DNA of 55,411 bases from Alteromonadaceae bacterium (GTDB taxonomy: Bacteria > Pseudomonadota > Gammaproteobacteria > Enterobacterales > Alteromonadaceae). Each line of letters begins with the position of its first letter. Position 1 is the first letter of the stretch. The stretch covers positions 56,512 to 111,922 of the forward strand of contig NZIK01000105.1 of NCBI GenBank assembly GCA_002691625.1. The letters are read 5' to 3'. Below, one piece after another: positions 5,093 through 47,901 of the stretch. The position numbers were made by a program, and so were the translations under genes. Below the pieces are notes generated by a model. That model did no database searches. It saw nothing but the letters and a program-made list of their open reading frames with translations, and had not been told where the DNA came from.

Positions 5093-6109
5093 TCACACCT
5101 GATAATATTCACGATACCATTTAACGAATTCACCGATCCCATGTTCAATACCAATCGTTGGACGGTATCCGGTATCTTTCACCAGGCTTGCCACATCGGC
5201 ATAAGTGTCGGGAACATCGCCTGGTTGCATGGGCAGTAATTCTTTATTGGCGGTCATTCCCAGCGCTTTCTCCAGAGTTTCGATGAAGTTAAGCAGGTTT
5301 ACCGGGTTTTGCGCGCCAATATTATACACCCTCCAGGGCGCCTTACTGGTAGCCGGGTTGGGTGTCGTACCCTGCCAGTTTTCATCGGCCTGAGCGGGGC
5401 GGTCCAGCGTGCGGATAATGCCTTCTACGATATCATCGATGTAGGTGAAATCGCGGTGATGGTTACCGTAGTTGTATACCTGAATGGTTTCGCCGGCCAG
5501 TATGGCTTTAGTAAATTTAAACAGCGCCATATCCGGTCTTCCCCAGGGGCCATATACGGTGAAAAAGCGCAGGCCAGTAGTGGGCAATCCATACAGGTGG
5601 CTGTAGGTGTGAGCCATCAGTTCATTGGCTTTTTTGCTGGCCGCATAAAGACTTACCGGGTGATCAACATTGTGCTTCTCTGAAAATGGCATGGTTTCAT
5701 TAGCGCCATATACTGAACTGGAAGATGCATAAACCAAATGCTCAACCTTATTATGCCGGCATCCCTCAAGTATATTCATAAAGCCAACCAGGTTGGCATC
5801 AACATAGGCATGAGGATTTTCGATGGAATAACGCACCCCGGCCTGGGCGGCAAGATGCACGACGCGGTCAAACTTTTCATTAGCAAAAAGTTCGGTACAA
5901 GTATCACGCTCCTCAACGCCCATTTTCTGAAAGCGAAAACTACCGGTGAATTCCGCAGACTCAAGCTGACTCAGGCGGCCATACTTAAGATTTATATCGT
6001 AATAGTCATTGATATTGTCGATGCCGACTACATCATCTCCACGTTGCGCCAGGTATCGGCTTACCGCTGAACCAATAAACCCGGCGGCACCGGTGACCAG
6101 AACTTTCAT
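5093..6109 (-). CDS. UDP-glucuronate 4-epimerase (NAD-dependent epimerase)
   Basis: A 338-residue extended short-chain dehydrogenase/reductase. It has a Rossmann motif GAAGFIGS at residues 7-14, a serine cluster SSSSVYG near 130-136, and the catalytic pair Tyr155/Lys159 in YAASK. The INDYYDINLKYGRLSQL segment after the NAD loop is characteristic of enzymes that interconvert UDP-glucuronate and UDP-galacturonate, rather than GalE or RmlB. The product would feed acidic sugar into the exopolysaccharide. A GGAG ribosome binding site precedes the ATG. It is the last gene of the minus-strand operon that starts at 9179, 30 bases after the nucleotidyltransferase. Confidence 0.88.
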   Translation of the reverse strand: MKVLVTGAAGFIGSAVSRYLAQRGDDVVGIDNINDYYDINLKYGRLSQLESAEFTGSFRFQKMGVEERDTCTELFANEKFDRVVHLAAQAGVRYSIENPHAYVDANLVGFMNILEGCRHNKVEHLVYASSSSVYGANETMPFSEKHNVDHPVSLYAASKKANELMAHTYSHLYGLPTTGLRFFTVYGPWGRPDMALFKFTKAILAGETIQVYNYGNHHRDFTYIDDIVEGIIRTLDRPAQADENWQGTTPNPATSKAPWRVYNIGAQNPVNLLNFIETLEKALGMTANKELLPMQPGDVPDTYADVASLVKDTGYRPTIGIEHGIGEFVKWYREYYQV

Positions 6110-6139
6110 GTAATTCTCCGCTTGATAGTAAGTTTCGAT

Positions 6140-7264
6140 TTAACGCTTGAATGCGGCGCCTAAATCGACCGGTTTCGCATCTGCCGTGGAGTCACCGCGA
6201 AGCCAGTTATGTATACCTAACCACAGTTTAATAGAAAAATGCTTAACGAGTACAGTAAACGGCATTTTAATACTGTGGCCGCGTACAAATACCATAAATC
6301 TCGCTAAACCCGAACGCACTGAGTGTAATGCAGGATGCGCTGGTATCAAAGCGTATTTATAGGTTCGTGTCAGTAGCTTTACTTTAATACGCTGAAACAT
6401 TCCTTGTGGCTGGCCGATGGAATAAGTGGTTTTGAACCAGTGGTTTAGCAACGTCACTACCACCTTTAACTCTTTCTCGAAATGACTTGCAACGGCTAGC
6501 TGTTCAACCCGCAGCCAGAACGCATCACTATCATATTGCTGGGCCAGGCACTTTAAATCCACTATATCGCGGAAACCATACACGACTTCTTCATTTAGCA
6601 TCAGGTGGATAATGCTATGCATAAACATTGCCGCGGGTTCAAGGGTATACAGCCCGCACTCCTGACGCCTCACTCCCAGCCAGAACTCCTCTAGCGGTGG
6701 CGCCTTGCCACTAACAGGCAAAAACAGATTGTGGTGCAGATCGAGCACCGTCCCTCGGGTAAGATGATAGAGAGGCGGAATTTCGTGAGCATATTCACGA
6801 TAATATTTATCGTCGTAGTCAGTGATTATTTTGTGATACCAGAAGTTATCCAGCAGTACAGTCTCACTGGTTGCCAACGCCCCCTCTTTAACTAACAAAT
6901 CAATATCCGAACATAACCGGCCCGGCGCATTATTGGTTGCCGCAACAATATAGGCTGCGCCTTTTAGGAAAACCGGCGTCACACCCTGGGCCATTAACAC
7001 GTCATGGATTTCCTGCCCCTCATGGAACACCTGGTCATTTTGTCGTTGGGCATAAACCATGGCCGCGCTCAGATGAGCCTGAACCTGCCCGGGAATACTG
7101 TCCCAGGTCCCTGAGTCGCGTAAAACAAAGGCTAAATAAGCTTCAAGACGTGAAGTTTTCAGCACAAACAACATAGATTCCCACTCTTGAAGTGAGCGAT
7201 GGGTAAGCTGCTCAGGCGAATTAATCGCCTGGACAAGGTCTTCAAAGCTGAATTTATGCGCCAT
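6140..7264 (-). CDS. Nucleotidyltransferase family protein (NTP_transf_5-like)
   Basis: A 374-residue protein starting at ATG 7264 (MAHKFSF). The frame is open to 7327, but that extension lies wholly inside the preceding gene and looks unlike coding sequence. The motif VFLKGAAY (about 98-105) followed by LCSDIDLLVKEG (about 117-128, with Asp120 and Asp122) is the DxD nucleotidyl-transfer signature of the polymerase-beta-like fold. A second acidic/histidine segment, DLHHNLFLP, follows. These proteins recur next to HprK-like and PqqD-like genes in exopolysaccharide and exosortase loci. The acceptor is unknown. It overlaps the kinase gene by 11 bases, which implies translational coupling. Confidence 0.78.
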   Translation of the reverse strand: MAHKFSFEDLVQAINSPEQLTHRSLQEWESMLFVLKTSRLEAYLAFVLRDSGTWDSIPGQVQAHLSAAMVYAQRQNDQVFHEGQEIHDVLMAQGVTPVFLKGAAYIVAATNNAPGRLCSDIDLLVKEGALATSETVLLDNFWYHKIITDYDDKYYREYAHEIPPLYHLTRGTVLDLHHNLFLPVSGKAPPLEEFWLGVRRQECGLYTLEPAAMFMHSIIHLMLNEEVVYGFRDIVDLKCLAQQYDSDAFWLRVEQLAVASHFEKELKVVVTLLNHWFKTTYSIGQPQGMFQRIKVKLLTRTYKYALIPAHPALHSVRSGLARFMVFVRGHSIKMPFTVLVKHFSIKLWLGIHNWLRGDSTADAKPVDLGAAFKR

Positions 7265-8117
7265 GCCCGACCACCTCATCCAATAAAAACTCGTCCATAA
7301 AGTCCAGATTGCTATAGTGCACCTCAAACACCTTCACTTTATCAATCAAGCGCCAAACCGTGTCGAAGGCCTGGTACCCTAAGACATGATAATTAAAGGC
7401 ATGCTGACATAGCTCTTCAAACACCTGCGATTTAGCAATGGTGTAGTACTGCTCTTCTGCCAAGTCACCATCGTACTTAGGAAACACTATCCCGGCTATT
7501 TCGACAGGCTGTAAGCGGGAATATTCCGTCCAGGTCTGAAACTTAGCATGAGCTACATCACCTTTAGCCGTATCACTGCAAACCTTCGTAATAGTTGCAT
7601 CCGGCTGCCAACCTCTTACCAGTTCAATAGAACGGTTTTTAATACACGCTGGCCGGTAAAGTGGCTCTGCGGTAAGTGAATCGGTATTGATAACTGCCAT
7701 TTCATCAGAATAGAGCTTCCAACCGTTAATCGCTAACCAGCAGGACAAGGTACTTTTTCCCGAACCAGGAAGTGCTGGAAATAACACCGCTTTATTGTTT
7801 TTTACCAATACCGCAGAATGCAGTAGCAGATGGTTAAAATCATGTGTAGCCAGACACCAGTTAAGCCCCCACTCTAGCAGCGCATAGGCCTGGGAAAAGG
7901 GTAAGGGTTTAAATGGAATTTGCGTATTACTTTCGAATACTATTTGCGGTCGGAAATATTTACGTACAATGCTTCCAGGGGCCAGACTTACTGTGAAATC
8001 AGACATTTCTTTTGGCTGACAGTCACCGTAAATTTGATTGAGAGCAGGGCTTATTGAAGAGGGATAGTCGTTTAATCTCGCCTGAAACAGGCCCATATTA
8101 ATAAAAAATGGCTTCAC
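7254..8117 (-). CDS. HPr-kinase-related ATPase (HprK-related kinase A type)
   Basis: A 287-residue protein with a P-loop in the HPr kinase arrangement. LLLHSAVLV (about 97-105) leads into the Walker A motif PALPGSGKST (114-123), followed by KLYSDEMAVI (about 134-143) with paired acidic residues where HprK keeps its Walker B site. True HprK/P proteins phosphorylate a serine of HPr. This shorter relative lacks a visible HprK N-terminal domain, and no HPr gene is near, so the substrate is probably different. The gene overlaps the PqqD-like gene by four bases (ATGA) and the nucleotidyltransferase by eleven. I assign it to the HPr-rel-A group from memory of that family. Confidence 0.8.
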   Translation of the reverse strand: MKPFFINMGLFQARLNDYPSSISPALNQIYGDCQPKEMSDFTVSLAPGSIVRKYFRPQIVFESNTQIPFKPLPFSQAYALLEWGLNWCLATHDFNHLLLHSAVLVKNNKAVLFPALPGSGKSTLSCWLAINGWKLYSDEMAVINTDSLTAEPLYRPACIKNRSIELVRGWQPDATITKVCSDTAKGDVAHAKFQTWTEYSRLQPVEIAGIVFPKYDGDLAEEQYYTIAKSQVFEELCQHAFNYHVLGYQAFDTVWRLIDKVKVFEVHYSNLDFMDEFLLDEVVGHGA

Positions 8118-8377
8118 ACGCGTACCAATAAACCCCGTGCTTCGAGCTCATTAACTGTGGCTAGCTGCCCATCGTGAAAATGATCAATAAATTCATCGAC
8201 TGACATTTCATTGGAGGGTTCAGCAAGGTTAATGGCGCGTTTTAAAGATTGGTGAACAAAGAAGGTTTCGCATGTCCGGGCAGAGAAAAAAGCTAACCCG
8301 GACATATCGCTAAAAGAGCGGCAACTTATGCCGTCTTTAAGACGGATATACAGCCCCTTACCTCCGGCTGTTGCCAT
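8114..8377 (-). CDS. PqqD-like peptide carrier (HPr-rel-A system type)
   Basis: An 87-residue protein read from ATG 8377. The frame is open further upstream to 8518, but that part is the antisense-like shadow of the preceding gene. The pattern of a short beta N-terminus (LYIRLKDG), a FFSARTCETFFVH core, a helical middle and a closing helix ending in LEARGLLVRV resembles the PqqD fold, which presents precursor peptides to modifying enzymes. A perfect GGAGG lies inside the gene (8361-8365) seven bases before an in-frame CTG (8353), so a shorter product is possible. It overlaps both neighbours (20 bases upstream, 4 downstream), so its output is coupled to theirs. Confidence 0.68.
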   Translation of the reverse strand: MATAGGKGLYIRLKDGISCRSFSDMSGLAFFSARTCETFFVHQSLKRAINLAEPSNEMSVDEFIDHFHDGQLATVNELEARGLLVRV

Positions 8378-9179
8378 TATTTCCGTTGTTGCCGCTGTTA
8401 CCGTTACTACCAGAACTACTAGTTGAGCACGCAGCACTGAACACCTCGTCAAATTCAGATTCAAATGTAGATTGGATAATCTGACTATGACCATCAGTAT
8501 AACCGAGTTGTGCATCACTCATATCTGTATCGCTTGTCTGCTTCAACTGAATTAATGCAGCCATTACAATTTCAGCCGTTTCCATTGCTGCGCTGTGATT
8601 TAGCGGCATGGAAACACCGTTATAGAGCCCAAAGTAAACGTTCATGTAAACAGTGGCGGAGTGACGCAAGATACTTTTTCTGCTATCCAGAGGAACAGGT
8701 GAACCCGTTCCAAAAATCGCATCGGTCAGCGAAACAGAGGTACTGTAATAGGTATCAGAATCAAAAATGTATTTTGCTGCAGCCTCAGGTAAGGTCAGGT
8801 GAGTGCTAACAATAAACTGGTTGATAATTGTTCGCATCTCTTCGATTCGAGTATCGAGCAAACAATTATCACCTGATTGAATCCCTACGTGAAGCTGAGG
8901 GAATACAGACGCAGGCGCGTCGCCGTTACTTCCGGGTGTCCATGTATTACCCTGGAACCATGAACCAGGTGAACGCCCACCATTTGGCATTTGCACAGTT
9001 CCACATGTATCACCTGTACCGCCACCTGTTTGCGACAAATTACCTGACATGACACCTGATACTGAACACGCTCCCCATACTGATTTCATGGGAAGTGACG
9101 ATACCGCCACACCAGCACCGGCTTTTTTTATAAACTGACGACGTTTTGTCACTGATGATTGATTTTGTTCAATACCCAT
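8358..9179 (-). CDS. Tat-signal secreted protein with SPG-W motif and Gly/Asn-rich tail
   Basis: A 273-residue protein, not recognised as a named family. Residues 11-19 (TKRRQFIKK) followed by a weakly hydrophobic stretch to about residue 37 form a twin-arginine export signal, so it should be exported folded. Next comes GGRSPGSWFQGNTW (about 67-80), recalling the SPGxW motif of secreted proteins, then a helical region with SILRHSATVYMNVYFGLYNG near 169-188 resembling the conserved helix of such proteins. The last 20 residues are almost only Gly, Asn and Ser and end in Arg-Arg. It heads the operon with the PqqD-like and HprK-like genes and is the obvious candidate client of that system (inference). 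Confidence 0.72.
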   Translation of the reverse strand: MGIEQNQSSVTKRRQFIKKAGAGVAVSSLPMKSVWGACSVSGVMSGNLSQTGGGTGDTCGTVQMPNGGRSPGSWFQGNTWTPGSNGDAPASVFPQLHVGIQSGDNCLLDTRIEEMRTIINQFIVSTHLTLPEAAAKYIFDSDTYYSTSVSLTDAIFGTGSPVPLDSRKSILRHSATVYMNVYFGLYNGVSMPLNHSAAMETAEIVMAALIQLKQTSDTDMSDAQLGYTDGHSQIIQSTFESEFDEVFSAACSTSSSGSNGNSGNNGNNGNSRR

Positions 9180-9365
9180 ACTGATAACTTTTGTCTTCCA
9201 TTGAAAAGCGGCCTGCTAAACATATGCAGACCAATTTTAAAGCATCATGAATAAATCATGCCAACTCTCTAACATCATGATAGTAAATGAATTTTATTAT
9301 TTCAGGGTACTAATTACTGCCTTTTTGTAAAAATTACCGACAGTAACAATCCAGGCGCCCTCTCA
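9180..9365 (-). other. Intergenic stretch upstream of the Tat/PqqD/HprK operon
   Basis: A 186-base AT-rich gap between two minus-strand genes. It must contain the promoter of the 9179-5093 operon unless that operon is read through from the protease gene. I see no GG-N10-GC sigma-54 site on the minus strand here and no convincing -35/-10 pair. Confidence 0.4.
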
Positions 9366-10127
9366 CTAAAGCGCTATATTAGACTTTGCTGCAAGCTTTC
9401 GCAAATGCATAACGGGAATAGCGTATGAGATTCCAGACGGTTTACTTAGTACTGACTCTTTCGTCTCGGCTACAAATACTTTGTTTATAACGCCAACTAC
9501 AACTCCGGATTCACTGAGATACATCGGGCTACCACTGTTTCCTGGGTAGGCAGTCGCATCCAACTGATAGATTAGAAATACCTTTTGTAATCTGTCGAGC
9601 ATATTAATAGATAGCTGATCGGAACGGCGCGCCGGAATAGCGTCGGGGGTTATCGCGGCAATCATGCCTCGATGAGTTGCAGGATACAGACCCAAAACAG
9701 CTCCAATAGGGAACCCGGTGAAGGCAATATGAGTGCCTTCTGGAACAAAGTCATCAGACGCTACTTTCAGTGGAGTCAATTTAGTGTCTATTTTCAGAAT
9801 GGCCAGATCATGAGCAGGGTCAATATCAACTACCTCAGCACGGTACGTTCTCGTATTCTTCGCATTTCCTGCATAAACGGAACGATACTGCACTACGTCC
9901 GGATCCAAAGGCGTTGATACAACGTGATAGTTAGTAGCAATATAATGTCCATCGCCGATAACGAACCCCGTCCCCTGCAATTGATTTGCTGGCGAATTCA
10001 TCGGCGTAGTTATACCCACCCCAACCACAGAAGGTTTCACTTTTTTTATCACCTCCACCATCGACTGATTCGCCTCAAGAGAGGTTGACAAAAAGATAAA
10101 TAACAAAAACAGAAAGATATTCTTCAT
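9366..10127 (-). CDS. Secreted trypsin-like serine protease (HtrA-like, no PDZ)
   Basis: A 253-residue protein with a Sec signal peptide (about residues 1-19, ending LEA) and an S1C-type chymotrypsin fold. The catalytic triad is readable: His68 in TNYHVV, Asp107 in DPAHDLAILK and Ser198 in AYPGNSGSP. Unlike DegP or DegS it stops after the protease domain, with no PDZ domain. It is expected in the periplasm or outside the cell. Trypsin-like proteases occur near exosortase loci and could mature surface proteins, but its substrate is unknown. It is divergent from the DUF218 gene, with 57 bases between the start codons. Confidence 0.88.
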   Translation of the reverse strand: MKNIFLFLLFIFLSTSLEANQSMVEVIKKVKPSVVGVGITTPMNSPANQLQGTGFVIGDGHYIATNYHVVSTPLDPDVVQYRSVYAGNAKNTRTYRAEVVDIDPAHDLAILKIDTKLTPLKVASDDFVPEGTHIAFTGFPIGAVLGLYPATHRGMIAAITPDAIPARRSDQLSINMLDRLQKVFLIYQLDATAYPGNSGSPMYLSESGVVVGVINKVFVAETKESVLSKPSGISYAIPVMHLRKLAAKSNIAL

Positions 10128-12029: not shown

Positions 12030-12045
12030 TGGCATAGCCCATGCA
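12030..12045 (+). promoter_or_regulatory. Sigma-54 promoter of PEP-CTERM gene 1
   Basis: TGGCATAGCCCATGCA has the invariant GG (12031-12032) and GC (12043-12044) separated by exactly 10 bases, matching the -24/-12 elements. The predicted transcript starts near 12056 and leaves a leader of about 33 bases. In XrtA-bearing bacteria, PEP-CTERM genes are known to depend on RpoN with the PrsK/PrsR two-component pair, which fits. Confidence 0.8.
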
Positions 12046-12088
12046 TTACCTTTGTCGTGGTAACTTTCTTAGTACAGAGGACAGTAAT

Positions 12089-12934
12089 ATGAACAAATTT
12101 TCTAAATTCACCAAAGCGTTGTCCTTAAGCGCAGTAATCGGCTTAGGCTTTGCTGGTGTATCTAACGCAGCAACAATCAATTTTAATAATGGCGTAGCGG
12201 CATCTGATGGCTCTGGTTTAACCAGCCAGTACATCGACCCAATCAACGGCGGTCTGCCAGATTATTTCATTGAAACATTCGACCAGGCAACCGGCGTACC
12301 AGGATTCCCTGGCACAACTGCATATACTATTCCAGGCTTTGAGGACGATTGTGCTGTAAACAGTGTCAATGGTAGTCCAATTGGCATCTCTGTTAATGGT
12401 AATGCTAGTGAAATCGGCATACGCCAAGGGTCTGTGTCTGGTGTAGCTGCTGCTCCTCTCAACGATTCTACTTGTTATGGCTATTTGTCGAACAACGGTT
12501 CAGGAACCGCGACAGTTGAGTTTGACTACACCAATTTGTTGGATTTTTATTCTGCTGCCGCCCCAGGTAACACTCAGCTTGGCATCACCTACTTAGGGTT
12601 TTACTGGGGATCAGTTGATACTTACAATGATTTTCAATTTTATTCTGGCGGTTCTTTAGTAACAACGATTACCGGTACGTCGCTGCTAAATCAGCTGAAT
12701 GGTGACTCTGGTGACCAGAACGATCCAGCTTCAAATACCTATGTAGAGATTGAATTTTCTATTGCAGAACAGTTTGATACGTTAGTAATCAACACTTCGG
12801 GTATTGCTGGTGAGTTTGACAATATCGTAATCGGTCTGAGCTCTCGTGAATTGCCAGTACCGGCTCCAGCAGGACTTGCACTGTTCGCTTTCGGCCTGGT
12901 TGCGCTTGGCCTGAGATCTCGTTTAAAAAAATAA
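12089..12934 (+). CDS. PEP-CTERM surface protein, copy 1
   Basis: A 281-residue secreted protein. The start is ATG 12089, 7 bases after an AGAGGA ribosome binding site. An earlier in-frame ATG at 12041 lies inside the sigma-54 promoter and cannot be used from it. A signal peptide ends at about SNA (27). The mature domain contains two cysteines (DDCAVNS and STCYGY), probably a disulfide, and the sequence FYWGSVDTYNDFQFYSGGSL, typical of a family of exosortase-dependent surface proteins. The C-terminus is a sorting tag: VPAPAG, a hydrophobic helix, then RSRLKK. XrtA should cleave at the tag. It is about 70% identical by eye to copy 2. Confidence 0.92.
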   Translation: MNKFSKFTKALSLSAVIGLGFAGVSNAATINFNNGVAASDGSGLTSQYIDPINGGLPDYFIETFDQATGVPGFPGTTAYTIPGFEDDCAVNSVNGSPIGISVNGNASEIGIRQGSVSGVAAAPLNDSTCYGYLSNNGSGTATVEFDYTNLLDFYSAAAPGNTQLGITYLGFYWGSVDTYNDFQFYSGGSLVTTITGTSLLNQLNGDSGDQNDPASNTYVEIEFSIAEQFDTLVINTSGIAGEFDNIVIGLSSRELPVPAPAGLALFAFGLVALGLRSRLKK

Positions 12935-12960
12935 ACGAAAGAGAAAGTTACCTCTAAGAA

Positions 12961-12987
12961 AAAGTCGGCTAAGTGCCGACTTTTTTT
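12961..12987 (+). terminator. Rho-independent terminator after PEP-CTERM copy 1
   Basis: The stem AAAGTCGGC / GCCGACTTT with a five-base loop runs into seven T. It separates the two PEP-CTERM genes into independent transcripts. Confidence 0.93.
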
Positions 12988-13050
12988 ACACTTATAACTT
13001 TTGTTCGAAAGGTCATTTTTTAAGCTTGTGAATTTTTAAGTTTTTTTTAT

Positions 13051-13066
13051 TGGTCTGAAAAATGCA
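13051..13066 (+). promoter_or_regulatory. Sigma-54 promoter of PEP-CTERM gene 2
   Basis: TGGTCTGAAAAATGCA has GG (13052-13053) and GC (13064-13065) with exactly 10 bases between, as in the first copy. Both sites share the ATGCATT -12 region. The predicted leader is about 30 bases. Confidence 0.8.
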
Positions 13067-13106
13067 TTGCTCCGATAGTTGGTGACATTAATTAAGGAGC
13101 GACTCT

Positions 13107-13949
13107 ATGAAACGTTTTTCCCCGGTCACTAAATCCCTTTTATTCAGTGTCGTACTGGTTTTTAGTGCCTCTAATCAATCTTCTGCAGCATCTATCAGCT
13201 TTGGTGGAGTAAGCGCCTCTGATGGTTCCGGCATAACAAGCACCTTTATGGACCCCATAAACGGCGGGCTGTCAGACTACTTCATTGAAACCTTTGATAT
13301 TGCGACGGGCGATCCTCTTTATCCTGGCTCAACAGATTACACCGTCTCTGGATTCGAAAACAAATGTGCCGTAAATAGCCTAAATAATAGCCCGATTGGC
13401 GTAAGTATTACCGGCAACAGTAATGAAATAGCAGTTAGGCAAGGTTCAGTCTCTAGCGTTGCTGCGGCACCGGCAAACGATAACACTTGCTATGGCTACG
13501 CGACGAATAATGGTCAGGGTGTAGCTACCATATCTTTTGATTACACAAATCTATTAGACTATTACAGTAGCTTATACGGAGCTTCAACCCAGTTGGGAAT
13601 TACTTACATTGGATTCTATTGGGGATCTGTCGATATATATAATGACTTCGAGTTTTATTCTGGAGGTTCTCTAGTATCGTTCATAACTGGCTCTTCGTTG
13701 CTTGCACAACTTGGCGGCAATTCGGGTAATCAGTCAGATCCAGACTCCAATGCTTACGTCAATATTGCGTTTTCAATCGCTGAACAGTTTGACACCCTGG
13801 TTATCAATACCAGTGACATTGCCGGAGAGTTCGACAACATAGTTATTGGTCTTAGCACCCGGGAGATTCCTGTCAACGCGCCGGGAGCAGCACTTTTACT
13901 GTTGTTTGGAACGGCTATGATAGCAAGTCGTCGGTTACGTAAAAAATAA
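13107..13949 (+). CDS. PEP-CTERM-like surface protein, copy 2 (degenerate tag)
   Basis: A 280-residue paralogue of the preceding gene, starting at ATG 13107 with AAGGAG 7 bases upstream. A signal peptide ends near SSA (27). The two cysteines (NKCAVNS and NTCYGY) and the FYWGSVDIYNDFEFYSGGSL block are conserved. The sorting tag differs: VNAPGAA replaces the PEP or PAP core, followed by a hydrophobic helix and ASRRLRKK. It may be a variant substrate, a poorly cleaved one, or drifting after duplication. It has its own sigma-54 promoter and terminator, so it can be expressed separately from copy 1. Confidence 0.88.
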   Translation: MKRFSPVTKSLLFSVVLVFSASNQSSAASISFGGVSASDGSGITSTFMDPINGGLSDYFIETFDIATGDPLYPGSTDYTVSGFENKCAVNSLNNSPIGVSITGNSNEIAVRQGSVSSVAAAPANDNTCYGYATNNGQGVATISFDYTNLLDYYSSLYGASTQLGITYIGFYWGSVDIYNDFEFYSGGSLVSFITGSSLLAQLGGNSGNQSDPDSNAYVNIAFSIAEQFDTLVINTSDIAGEFDNIVIGLSTREIPVNAPGAALLLLFGTAMIASRRLRKK

Positions 13950-26451: not shown

Positions 26452-28349
<1,898 letters not shown>

Positions 28350-28353
<4 letters not shown>

Positions 28354-46359: not shown

Positions 46360-47901
46360 TTAATTACCGGCCAGACGCGATTGCTGCGTGAGTTCAGGGT
46401 ATGACTGAGACACCTTATCCATGAACCACTGTTGCTGTGCTTGCAGAAAGCGGCGTTCCACTTCCATAGACATAATTACGACTGCGCCATGGGCAGGCTC
46501 CCCACCCAATGTGGTAACGATTTGTTGAAGTTTGGTTTGTTGTTTACCGGCAAAGGTATCTTCAGCTAAAACATACCAACTGGCTATCAACCGCAAGTTA
46601 CCGGCTGGTGAGGAAAGCAATTCCACAGCAAACGGATACTCCGCAGAAGTCGATACGTCAATCAACTCTACCCGGGTCCAACTGTCCTGATCATAAAGAC
46701 GATTTAATGAGCTTACCAGTTCACCGTCTCCAGCAGCATAAAAAGCCTGGTAGACAGTGATGGGGGAATCATAAGGCGTAGTGAGTAGCAGATACTGCTC
46801 AACTGTGGGCGAGCGGAATTTCGCCTTCCATACTAACCAGTAAACTTCGTCCTCGCTGAGCGGTTTGGTTTGAGGGGTATTTGCGAACTCAAACTGCTGA
46901 ACTTGCTTATCAGGAATAGCGCTGGCGATAAACTGATACCACCCAGCCGCAGCCATTAATAAGACAGCGACAGAAATCAAGCCACCTCTTGCAGCAGTTA
47001 CGGGCGATCCAGGCTGAATAGTAAGCTCTGTATCATTGCGTTGCGGTGGCACTTTTTCACGTAGCAACTCACCGAGTCCAATTAAACATACAATCACAAA
47101 AGCAAAGAAAAACCAGCCATAGATAAGGTGATCCGCACCTACCGCATATTGCATGTCGGATAAGTGTGCGATCAGAATGATGCCATAAACCCGGATAATA
47201 TTGGCAGCTACAGGAAATATCACCGACAGTAAAACAAAAACACAACGTCGCTTGGTGCTATATATATTGAGATAAGCATAAAGACAACCGATCACTAGCG
47301 ATGCAATAAAAAAGCTGATCCCGGAGCAGGCTTCTGCCACCAGAAAGCGCCCTTTAGGTATCTCAATATAAAGCCCACTACGAAATACAGGGATCCCGGA
47401 TAGCTCAAGCAAATCTACCGAGAATCTCGCAGCGATTTGTTGCAAGTAGGGAATCAACTCTTCCCCTACAGGAATACAGAAGAGGATAAACACCAATGGA
47501 AATAAAATTTGCCACGCCGCTTTATTACCAAGCACCATCCATATGAGTACCGGTAGCACACCAAACATAGCCGCATGCATAAACAGTTGCACTTCTCCAG
47601 CCAACCCTATGGCATAAAGTGCAATGGCAGGAAGGACTAGAATCGCCAGCCAATAATTTGGTTTAATTGGCTGTGTAAGCAATGCCTTACGTTTGAGGTA
47701 AATAAGGAAAAAAGTGCCGGGGATGACAAATAAACAATGATTAAATATATCAGAGTTGTACCAGATAGTAATGGCGGTAACCAATCCCTGATGAAATACC
47801 GCAGCCCAACCCAATAAGACCAGAATCACAGGTACCATTACGGCAGTAAAGGCCTTATTTATTTCCTTATCGCTGTTACCTGCGACTGCTTGCTCCTGCA
47901 T
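46360..47901 (-). CDS. xrtA: Exosortase A fused to EpsI domain
   Basis: A 513-residue protein in two parts. Residues 1-280 are exosortase A, an inner-membrane cysteine transpeptidase with about eight helices. The catalytic residues are Cys192 in VAEACSGISFF, Arg237 in ANIIRVYG and His258 in GADHLIYGWFF. Residues from about 305 form an EpsI-like periplasmic domain, introduced by one hydrophobic segment (about 307-325). XrtA recognises the PEP-CTERM tag and cleaves or transfers the protein at the membrane; substrates in this window are at 12089 and perhaps 13107. The XrtA-EpsI fusion is a known arrangement. It lies 17 bases after the deacetylase. Confidence 0.95.
   Translation of the reverse strand: MQEQAVAGNSDKEINKAFTAVMVPVILVLLGWAAVFHQGLVTAITIWYNSDIFNHCLFVIPGTFFLIYLKRKALLTQPIKPNYWLAILVLPAIALYAIGLAGEVQLFMHAAMFGVLPVLIWMVLGNKAAWQILFPLVFILFCIPVGEELIPYLQQIAARFSVDLLELSGIPVFRSGLYIEIPKGRFLVAEACSGISFFIASLVIGCLYAYLNIYSTKRRCVFVLLSVIFPVAANIIRVYGIILIAHLSDMQYAVGADHLIYGWFFFAFVIVCLIGLGELLREKVPPQRNDTELTIQPGSPVTAARGGLISVAVLLMAAAGWYQFIASAIPDKQVQQFEFANTPQTKPLSEDEVYWLVWKAKFRSPTVEQYLLLTTPYDSPITVYQAFYAAGDGELVSSLNRLYDQDSWTRVELIDVSTSAEYPFAVELLSSPAGNLRLIASWYVLAEDTFAGKQQTKLQQIVTTLGGEPAHGAVVIMSMEVERRFLQAQQQWFMDKVSQSYPELTQQSRLAGN

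Follow-up and report, generated by a model that had tools for sequence, protein, structure and literature searches.

A Tat-signal protein encoded with a PqqD-like protein, an HprK-related kinase and a PF14907 nucleotidyltransferase: a candidate exported substrate of a proposed modification cassette in Alteromonadaceae and other proteobacteria

Here we describe a four-gene operon in a 55,411-nucleotide stretch of DNA (the window) from an Alteromonadaceae bacterium (assembly GCA_002691625.1, rated 87% complete; contig NZIK01000105.1, positions 56,512 to 111,922 of the forward strand), which encodes, in this order, a protein with a twin-arginine translocation (Tat) signal, a PqqD-like protein with a predicted fold like that of RiPP recognition elements (RRE; RiPP, ribosomally synthesized and post-translationally modified peptide), an HprK-related kinase A, and a PF14907 nucleotidyltransferase. 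The four open reading frames (ORFs) occupy positions 9179-8358 (273 aa), 8377-8114 (87 aa), 8117-7254 (287 aa), and 7264-6140 (374 aa) of the minus strand. An earlier note on this DNA had reported that the genes overlap by 20, 4, and 11 bases, that two of them encode an HprK-like kinase and a DxD nucleotidyltransferase, and that no radical SAM gene is present. The overlaps were confirmed from the ORF coordinates and both enzymes by profile matches, while no radical SAM family was found among the 14 window proteins scanned with NCBIfam, the remaining window genes being read as translations only.

The kinase (7254..8117, minus strand) matches TIGR04352 (HprK-related kinase A) with 283 bits against a cut-off of 200, and residues H100, G118, G120, K121, T123, D138, E139, R155, and K160 are invariant in an alignment of 61 kinases that includes five close Alteromonas relatives. 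The transferase (6140..7264, minus strand) matches PF14907 (NTP_transf_5), a family to which PsmN of the pseudomycoidin pathway presumably also belongs, with 142 bits. Its DxD motif is intact, and all 59 aligned transferases share K122-G123, R137, D141, D143, H198, and H237 (numbering begins at the TTG at 7327). Judged by these residues, both enzymes look active. Searches of the PDB sequences with either protein gave no match at E-values up to 1. Outside the PF14907 domain, the tail of the transferase (6227-6283) carries the pattern RxHxxxMPxxxLxxHxxxK, each listed residue of which is present in at least 54 of the 59 sequences. A plasmid search with the window transferase returned four records and gave no further lead. 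On a Vibrio alfacsensis plasmid (NZ_CP140104.1, locus L245) kinase and transferase genes stand together with an upstream Tat gene annotated as a hypothetical protein, as is the Tat gene in both named plasmid records of this type that were examined.

The assignment of the second gene (8114..8377, minus strand) as PqqD-like, also made in the earlier note, stands by its position, its relatives, and its predicted fold and falls short in one respect, as the protein itself matched no NCBIfam or Pfam model, TIGR04353 included. TIGR04353 is matched by 32 of the 42 relatives at the PqqD position, which were taken from 61 loci to build alignment A2; the automatic picks were wrong at some loci, e.g., L024, L105, L112, and L114. 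The structural model (mean predicted local distance difference test score, pLDDT, of 68) consists of four strands followed by three helices and one strand. Its first fold matches in the PDB were the PbtF RRE, the lasso B1 protein TbiB1 with bound leader, ThcOx, and another lasso B1 protein with leader, all at probabilities of 0.99-1.00. The protein would accordingly be modeled as RRE-like, and an RRE beside modifying enzymes fits a RiPP system in the broad sense.

The Tat-signal protein (8358..9179, minus strand) is the proposed substrate. Its signal region (residues 1-37, 9069..9179; a proposed leader with a tentative end) contains a twin arginine (R13-R14) followed by a hydrophobic stretch, so export is predicted from the sequence; the signal, KRRQFIKKAGAGVAVSSLP, is borderline for TIGR01409, scoring 14.3 bits alone and 18.1 bits when scanned with its neighbors against a cut-off of 16.7. 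Directly after the signal lies the motif C38-x2-S41-G-x2-S45-G-N-x-S49 (9033..9068), a candidate phosphorylation site. In alignment A1, which comprises 38 of 59 Tat proteins chosen to include the motif-bearing type and whose invariants therefore do not describe the alphaproteobacterial type, M1, the second arginine R14, C38, S45, and N180 are invariant, and R13, S41, S49, and G72 are at least 90% conserved, G72 falling in SPGSW (8958..8972), the window's form of an SPGYW motif. Conservation thus centers on the signal and on the Cys/Ser motif with which the mature protein begins. None of the 38 members matches an NCBIfam model at an E-value of 0.01, and the lone marginal Pfam match among them, DC_STAMP at 0.0096, is not meaningful; the family lacks a name in these two libraries. 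The AlphaFold2 model (mean pLDDT 62) shows a helical core at about residues 70-216 and pLDDT below 50 at residues 7-66, and the serine motif is therefore probably flexible. A lipoprotein role for C38 was considered and dropped because its distance from the signal is not constant.

Five close relatives (L024-L028), recovered as genome contigs in a search with the window's Tat protein that returned Alteromonas oceani and A. alba as named species, all keep the four-gene order together with an upstream HtrA-like protease gene and a downstream epimerase gene. The earlier description of the first gene product as a Tat protein with a Gly/Asn tail holds for the signal and not for the tail: the C-terminal tail is Lys/Asp-rich in three of the five relatives and absent in two, so it is unlikely to be the point of the protein, and we rejected it as a functional element. 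Identities to the window's proteins are 66-83% for the Tat protein and 69-88% for the PqqD-like protein, as against 89-97% for the kinase; they are 91-96% for the protease, 93-100% for the epimerase, and 80-100% for the transferase. The Tat and PqqD-like proteins are thus more variable than the kinase, which we count in favor of a substrate role. In A. alba (L027) the transferase, the epimerase, and a patatin are 100% identical to those of the window and the Tat protein only 66%, as if the Tat gene had been locally exchanged or diversified.

Across genomes, kinases over the TIGR04352 cut-off were found in 17 of 148 genomes at the level of the order, 41 of 369 of the class, and 61 of 398 of the phylum, giving after removal of repeats 17, 39, and 53 loci, or 109 in all; genome G659, with an over-cut-off kinase split at contig ends, was left out. 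The comparison of kinase neighborhoods proposed in the earlier note tied the Tat gene firmly to the kinase, with an upstream Tat-signal ORF on the same strand at 100 of 109 loci (17/17 in the order, 38/39 in the class, and 45/53 in the phylum), or 101 when a divergent one (L178) is added. The sole miss in the class, L109, lies 567 bases before a contig end, and one of those in the phylum, L199, has no usable upstream sequence. The Tat-ORF scanner differed between these counts: the phylum figure combines one scan with L168 from another, and a second count also gave 45/53 with L193 counted and L183 missed. The short Tat peptide of L102 fell under the length filter of the main scan and was added from a separate reading, and the Tat ORFs of L044, L089, L094, L103, L104, and L117 were also checked by eye. 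With a single fixed scanner, 54 of the 56 order and class loci were positive; among other windows the scanner gave 51 of 371 on the same strand and 7 of 56 on the opposite strand. PqqD matches by hidden Markov model (HMM) were obtained at 15/17, 39/39, and 45/53 loci of the order, class, and phylum, and nucleotidyltransferase matches at 17/17, 39/39, and 35/53; PqqD was undetected at five of the six phylum loci where upstream sequence was available and no Tat gene was found.

The reverse comparison points the same way. A profile built from A1 matched 50 of 369 class genomes at E-values of at most 0.001, and all 30 genomes with E-values below 1e-20 are among the 41 with an over-cut-off kinase. 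Because A1 members come partly from class genomes, the sensitivity of the profile is circular; the dearth of strong matches elsewhere is not. Some weak matches cover the SPGYW part only, in proteins of other genomes. Genome G441, which has the system, encodes a further Tat protein bearing this Cys/Ser motif at L226 (G441:C20), in an 8-kb stretch with no kinase ORF; this additional protein is perhaps an orphan substrate.

Kinases scoring under the TIGR04352 cut-off, of which we took a sample, often adjoin small Tat peptides. We located 20 of these, all of 56-90 residues but for one of 149, with start codons set by rule; they occur near HprK-like kinases at loci including L127, L129, L130, and L219-L223, in three copies at L127 and in two each at L130 and L221, the L221 stretch containing no kinase ORF. 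Their signals are near constant within two groups (SRRxFLKKTAYVAPAILTLKAxPAFA and RRxFLKKFGKxAVxTPxA) and the remainder is variable, with GS soon after the signal in many. Ten of them, compared with NCBIfam and Pfam, matched no specific model and gave only weak generic Tat-signal or chance matches. In some of the sub-cut-off kinases, an extension at the N-terminus looks like a PqqD domain. At L102, a true HprK-related A locus, the mature part of the Tat peptide is only about 12 residues long. These loci thus combine a conserved leader with a variable core, as in RiPP precursors, the "core" of the window's protein being a full domain. Given that at some loci several copies share their signal and differ in their core, a role other than that of substrate is difficult to envisage for these peptides.

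In a tree of 74 chosen kinases, several on long branches, the HprK-related A rows form one clade (100/99), and micro-peptide partners account for 7/7 rows of one supported clade and 7/9 of a second; the single lasso kinase groups with two kinases lacking a Tat partner, a placement that its long branches make unsure. Among the partner signals, 34 of 54 carry a strict motif in the hydrophobic region, P[LIVMAF]2-3[TS][LIVMF], as do 13 of 20 micro-peptides and 28 of 44 signals of the phylum sample; none of the 39 background signals, taken from other Tat proteins of the window's genome and its relatives, has it. Two background loci had no readable signal, and the window's own signal was kept out of the background. 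This result is only suggestive, because the motif was chosen after class and phylum signals had been seen and the sequences are related.

Around the four genes, the same-strand run extends to an HtrA-like serine protease gene upstream (9366..10127, minus strand) and, 30 bases downstream, to a gene for an NAD-dependent sugar-nucleotide epimerase (5093..6109, minus strand), which probably shares the operon. Both were assigned from profile matches under their cut-offs, the best models of the epimerase being GalE and RmlB, and both have the same place in L024-L028. Further along, the window contains an XrtA/PEP-CTERM exopolysaccharide locus with exosortase A (46360..47901, minus strand; TIGR03109, 308.6 bits, cut-off 208), PrsT, an amidotransferase, an export protein, and an acyltransferase. 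The top model of an asparagine synthase at 26452-28353 is TIGR03108, at a score under its cut-off. Positions 12041-13949 encode two secreted proteins in tandem that resemble each other and have PEP-CTERM-like C-termini; both are also present in L024-L028. Exosortase A over cut-off was found in 35 of the 41 kinase-bearing class genomes (a hand count from listings) versus 38 of the other 328 (Fisher p of about 1e-22, uncorrected for relatedness). Because of this enrichment, the product of the operon is probably a component of the exopolysaccharide matrix.

Precedents for the enzymes come from lasso peptides, for which we drew on the available parts of PMC10368454, PMC8498205, PMC9266682, and PMC7533575. 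As described there, the kinases PadeK and ThcoK phosphorylate the C-terminal serine of the lasso precursor, and BsfK phosphorylates Ser3 of the core, faster in the presence of the RRE protein BsfB1 (PMC10368454, PMC8498205, PMC9266682). According to the same portions of these sources, PsmN, annotated as a nucleotidyltransferase, is needed, perhaps as the sugar-transferring enzyme itself, for the addition of one or two hexoses to phosphoserine in pseudomycoidin, and paeninodin is phosphorylated and carries no sugar (PMC10368454, PMC8498205, PMC9266682). The earlier note held that the chemistry of the gene set was not described; this applies to the set itself, on which we found no paper or biochemical result in a search of mainly open-access literature with bioRxiv outside it, and not to related kinase, RRE, and nucleotidyltransferase genes, to which the lasso papers assign tailoring roles.

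The co-occurrence of the Tat gene with the kinase and the invariance of the motifs in both enzymes make modification ahead of export the reading that fits best, and we think it somewhat more probable than otherwise that the four genes form a cassette that serves to modify a single exported substrate, acting through an RRE, a kinase, a PF14907 enzyme, and Tat export. In the proposed mechanism, a cytoplasmic step comes first, in which the PqqD-like protein would bind the Tat precursor in its signal-peptide region and hand it to the HprK-type kinase. The kinase would phosphorylate one of the serines close to where the mature protein begins, S45 being the likeliest and S41 and S49 the alternatives. 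The PF14907 enzyme would act next on the phosphoserine, adding either a sugar (phosphoglycosylation) or a nucleotide, and the Tat route would export the folded, modified protein, with the exopolysaccharide matrix made by the XrtA locus as its probable destination. We infer the substrate, the site, the order of the steps, the second group, and the matrix role from the genomic evidence above.

A number of observations weigh against this reading. At six phylum loci (L179, L180, L186, L193, L202, and L215) no Tat gene was found despite upstream sequence, and several sub-cut-off kinases, e.g., L118-L120 and L125, have no recognized Tat gene next to them; at L118, L119, and L120 the nucleotidyltransferase, PqqD-like, and HprK-like genes follow one another in that order. 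No nucleotidyltransferase was detected at 18 of the 53 phylum loci; of these, 14 have less than 1.8 kb of downstream sequence, but L195 and L196 have about 4 kb. Only 35 of 54 partners fit a regular expression for the Cys/Ser motif, and partners of the alphaproteobacterial type keep the signal and the following cysteine and mostly lack the Ser and SPGYW motifs, so the modification site may differ. The fold search with the Tat model, itself of low mean pLDDT, gave no PDB match; the best fold matches of the PqqD-like protein have E-values of 0.01-0.05, and eukaryotic NO66 oxygenases come next in its ranking at probabilities of 0.89-0.97. The window's own signal has only a loose form of the hydrophobic-region motif, also seen in 11 of 39 background signals. 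As far as the available parts of the lasso literature go, lasso kinases act mostly on a C-terminal serine, only BsfK acting near the N-terminus of the core, and they are reported with Asp-Asp where the operon kinase has Asp-Glu (D138-E139). As separate observations on the gene triples, the next gene at L118 and L120 reads like a tRNA methyltransferase, and at L119 a pair of similar ORFs, located on the opposite strand some +2.9 and +3.5 kb away from where the kinase begins, each combine a Tat-like beginning with a long poly-Thr tail.

Some of this evidence would suit a different substrate. The kinase and nucleotidyltransferase could act on a precursor belonging to the XrtA locus (sugar, lipid, or exopolysaccharide), with the Tat protein as a co-regulated matrix protein; the enrichment of exosortase A in kinase-bearing genomes, the downstream epimerase gene, and the triples at L118-L120 agree with this, but a PqqD/RRE protein suggests a peptide substrate, and the Tat genes at 100 of 109 loci and the micro-peptides at sub-cut-off loci speak for the exported protein, so we regard a precursor as an unlikely target. 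Dedicated cytoplasmic Tat chaperones exist, TorA/TorD being an example, and the constant signal peptides, the RRE-like predicted fold, and the folded domain of the large version of the Tat partner would fit a form of quality control in which the PqqD-like chaperone delays export and the kinase-like P-loop protein and nucleotidyltransferase time release by nucleotides, leaving no lasting modification. This seems to us quite doubtful, as it would make the PF14907 transferase superfluous, micro-peptides with about 12 mature residues need no folding check, and lasso relatives of the kinase modify serine in the literature portions available. Finally, a system in which the kinase phosphorylates the Tat protein and the nucleotidyltransferase works elsewhere or as a regulator would suit the 18 phylum loci without that gene, its adjacent but different placement at some class loci, and sugar-free paeninodin as the available sources give it, but is improbable in view of its presence at all order and class loci, its invariant active site, and the pseudomycoidin precedent as described there.

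If modification before export is correct, it would provide a substrate, a site, and testable chemistry for a kinase family that annotation pipelines name yet leave unexplained, tie RiPP-type leader recognition to Tat export, connect a route of protein phosphoglycosylation with exosortase-A exopolysaccharide loci, and make the micro-peptide loci a new set of small exported products. More tentatively, and with somewhat less than even confidence, we suggest a widespread, unrecognized class of modified exported proteins and peptides whose Tat signal would also act as a RiPP leader. An RRE would read this leader, the kinase would phosphorylate the mature N-terminus, and the PF14907 enzyme would cap the resulting phosphate; the need to complete modification ahead of export would explain the use of the Tat route. 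Members of the class would range from matrix proteins of 200-300 residues to tandem micro-peptides.

Two lasso-type loci came to light alongside. An unannotated cluster on a Paenibacillus cellulosilyticus plasmid (L247, 5875-11320) encodes a cyclase of the asparagine-synthase type, a PF14907 protein (208 bits), a Transglut_core3 protein, and an HprK-like kinase with a sub-threshold Hpr_kinase_C match, along with a 64-residue ORF whose product ends in Ser. In a same-genus genome (G121), a 52-residue ORF at L048:9283-9441 (plus strand) near an HprK-like kinase reads like a lasso-type precursor (YTKPELQKVGTLAELT...).

Among known systems, the HPr-rel-A system of NCBIfam, defined by TIGR04352 and the PqqD family peptide chaperone TIGR04353, shares with the operon the kinase family, over cut-off, and a PqqD gene in the same place; it differs in that no substrate model matched the 38 Tat members and that the PqqD-like protein of the window misses TIGR04353. 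The SynChlorMet cassette is more distant: the kinase weakly matches ScmC, two PqqD relatives match ScmD just as weakly, and that cassette presumably includes radical SAM enzymes, unlike this operon. With TorA/TorD-type pairs it would have in common a dedicated partner that reads the signal peptide before export, but the operon has an RRE-like protein and a kinase and no TorD-type gene. The lasso peptides paeninodin, BsfA, and pseudomycoidin likewise have an HprK-like kinase, an RRE, and a nucleotidyltransferase for a Ser-bearing precursor. Unlike their clusters, the operon lacks a cyclase and a B2 protease, and its kinase pairs with a Tat protein (about 130-300 residues) or, at other loci, with a Tat peptide; a reading of the operon as a lasso cluster was rejected, as neither a lasso cyclase nor a transglutaminase-type B2 protein is encoded among the genes at 5093-10127. 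In our judgement the system represents lasso-type tailoring genes applied to Tat cargo, a combination that recurs in many proteobacteria and also occurs with small Tat peptides.

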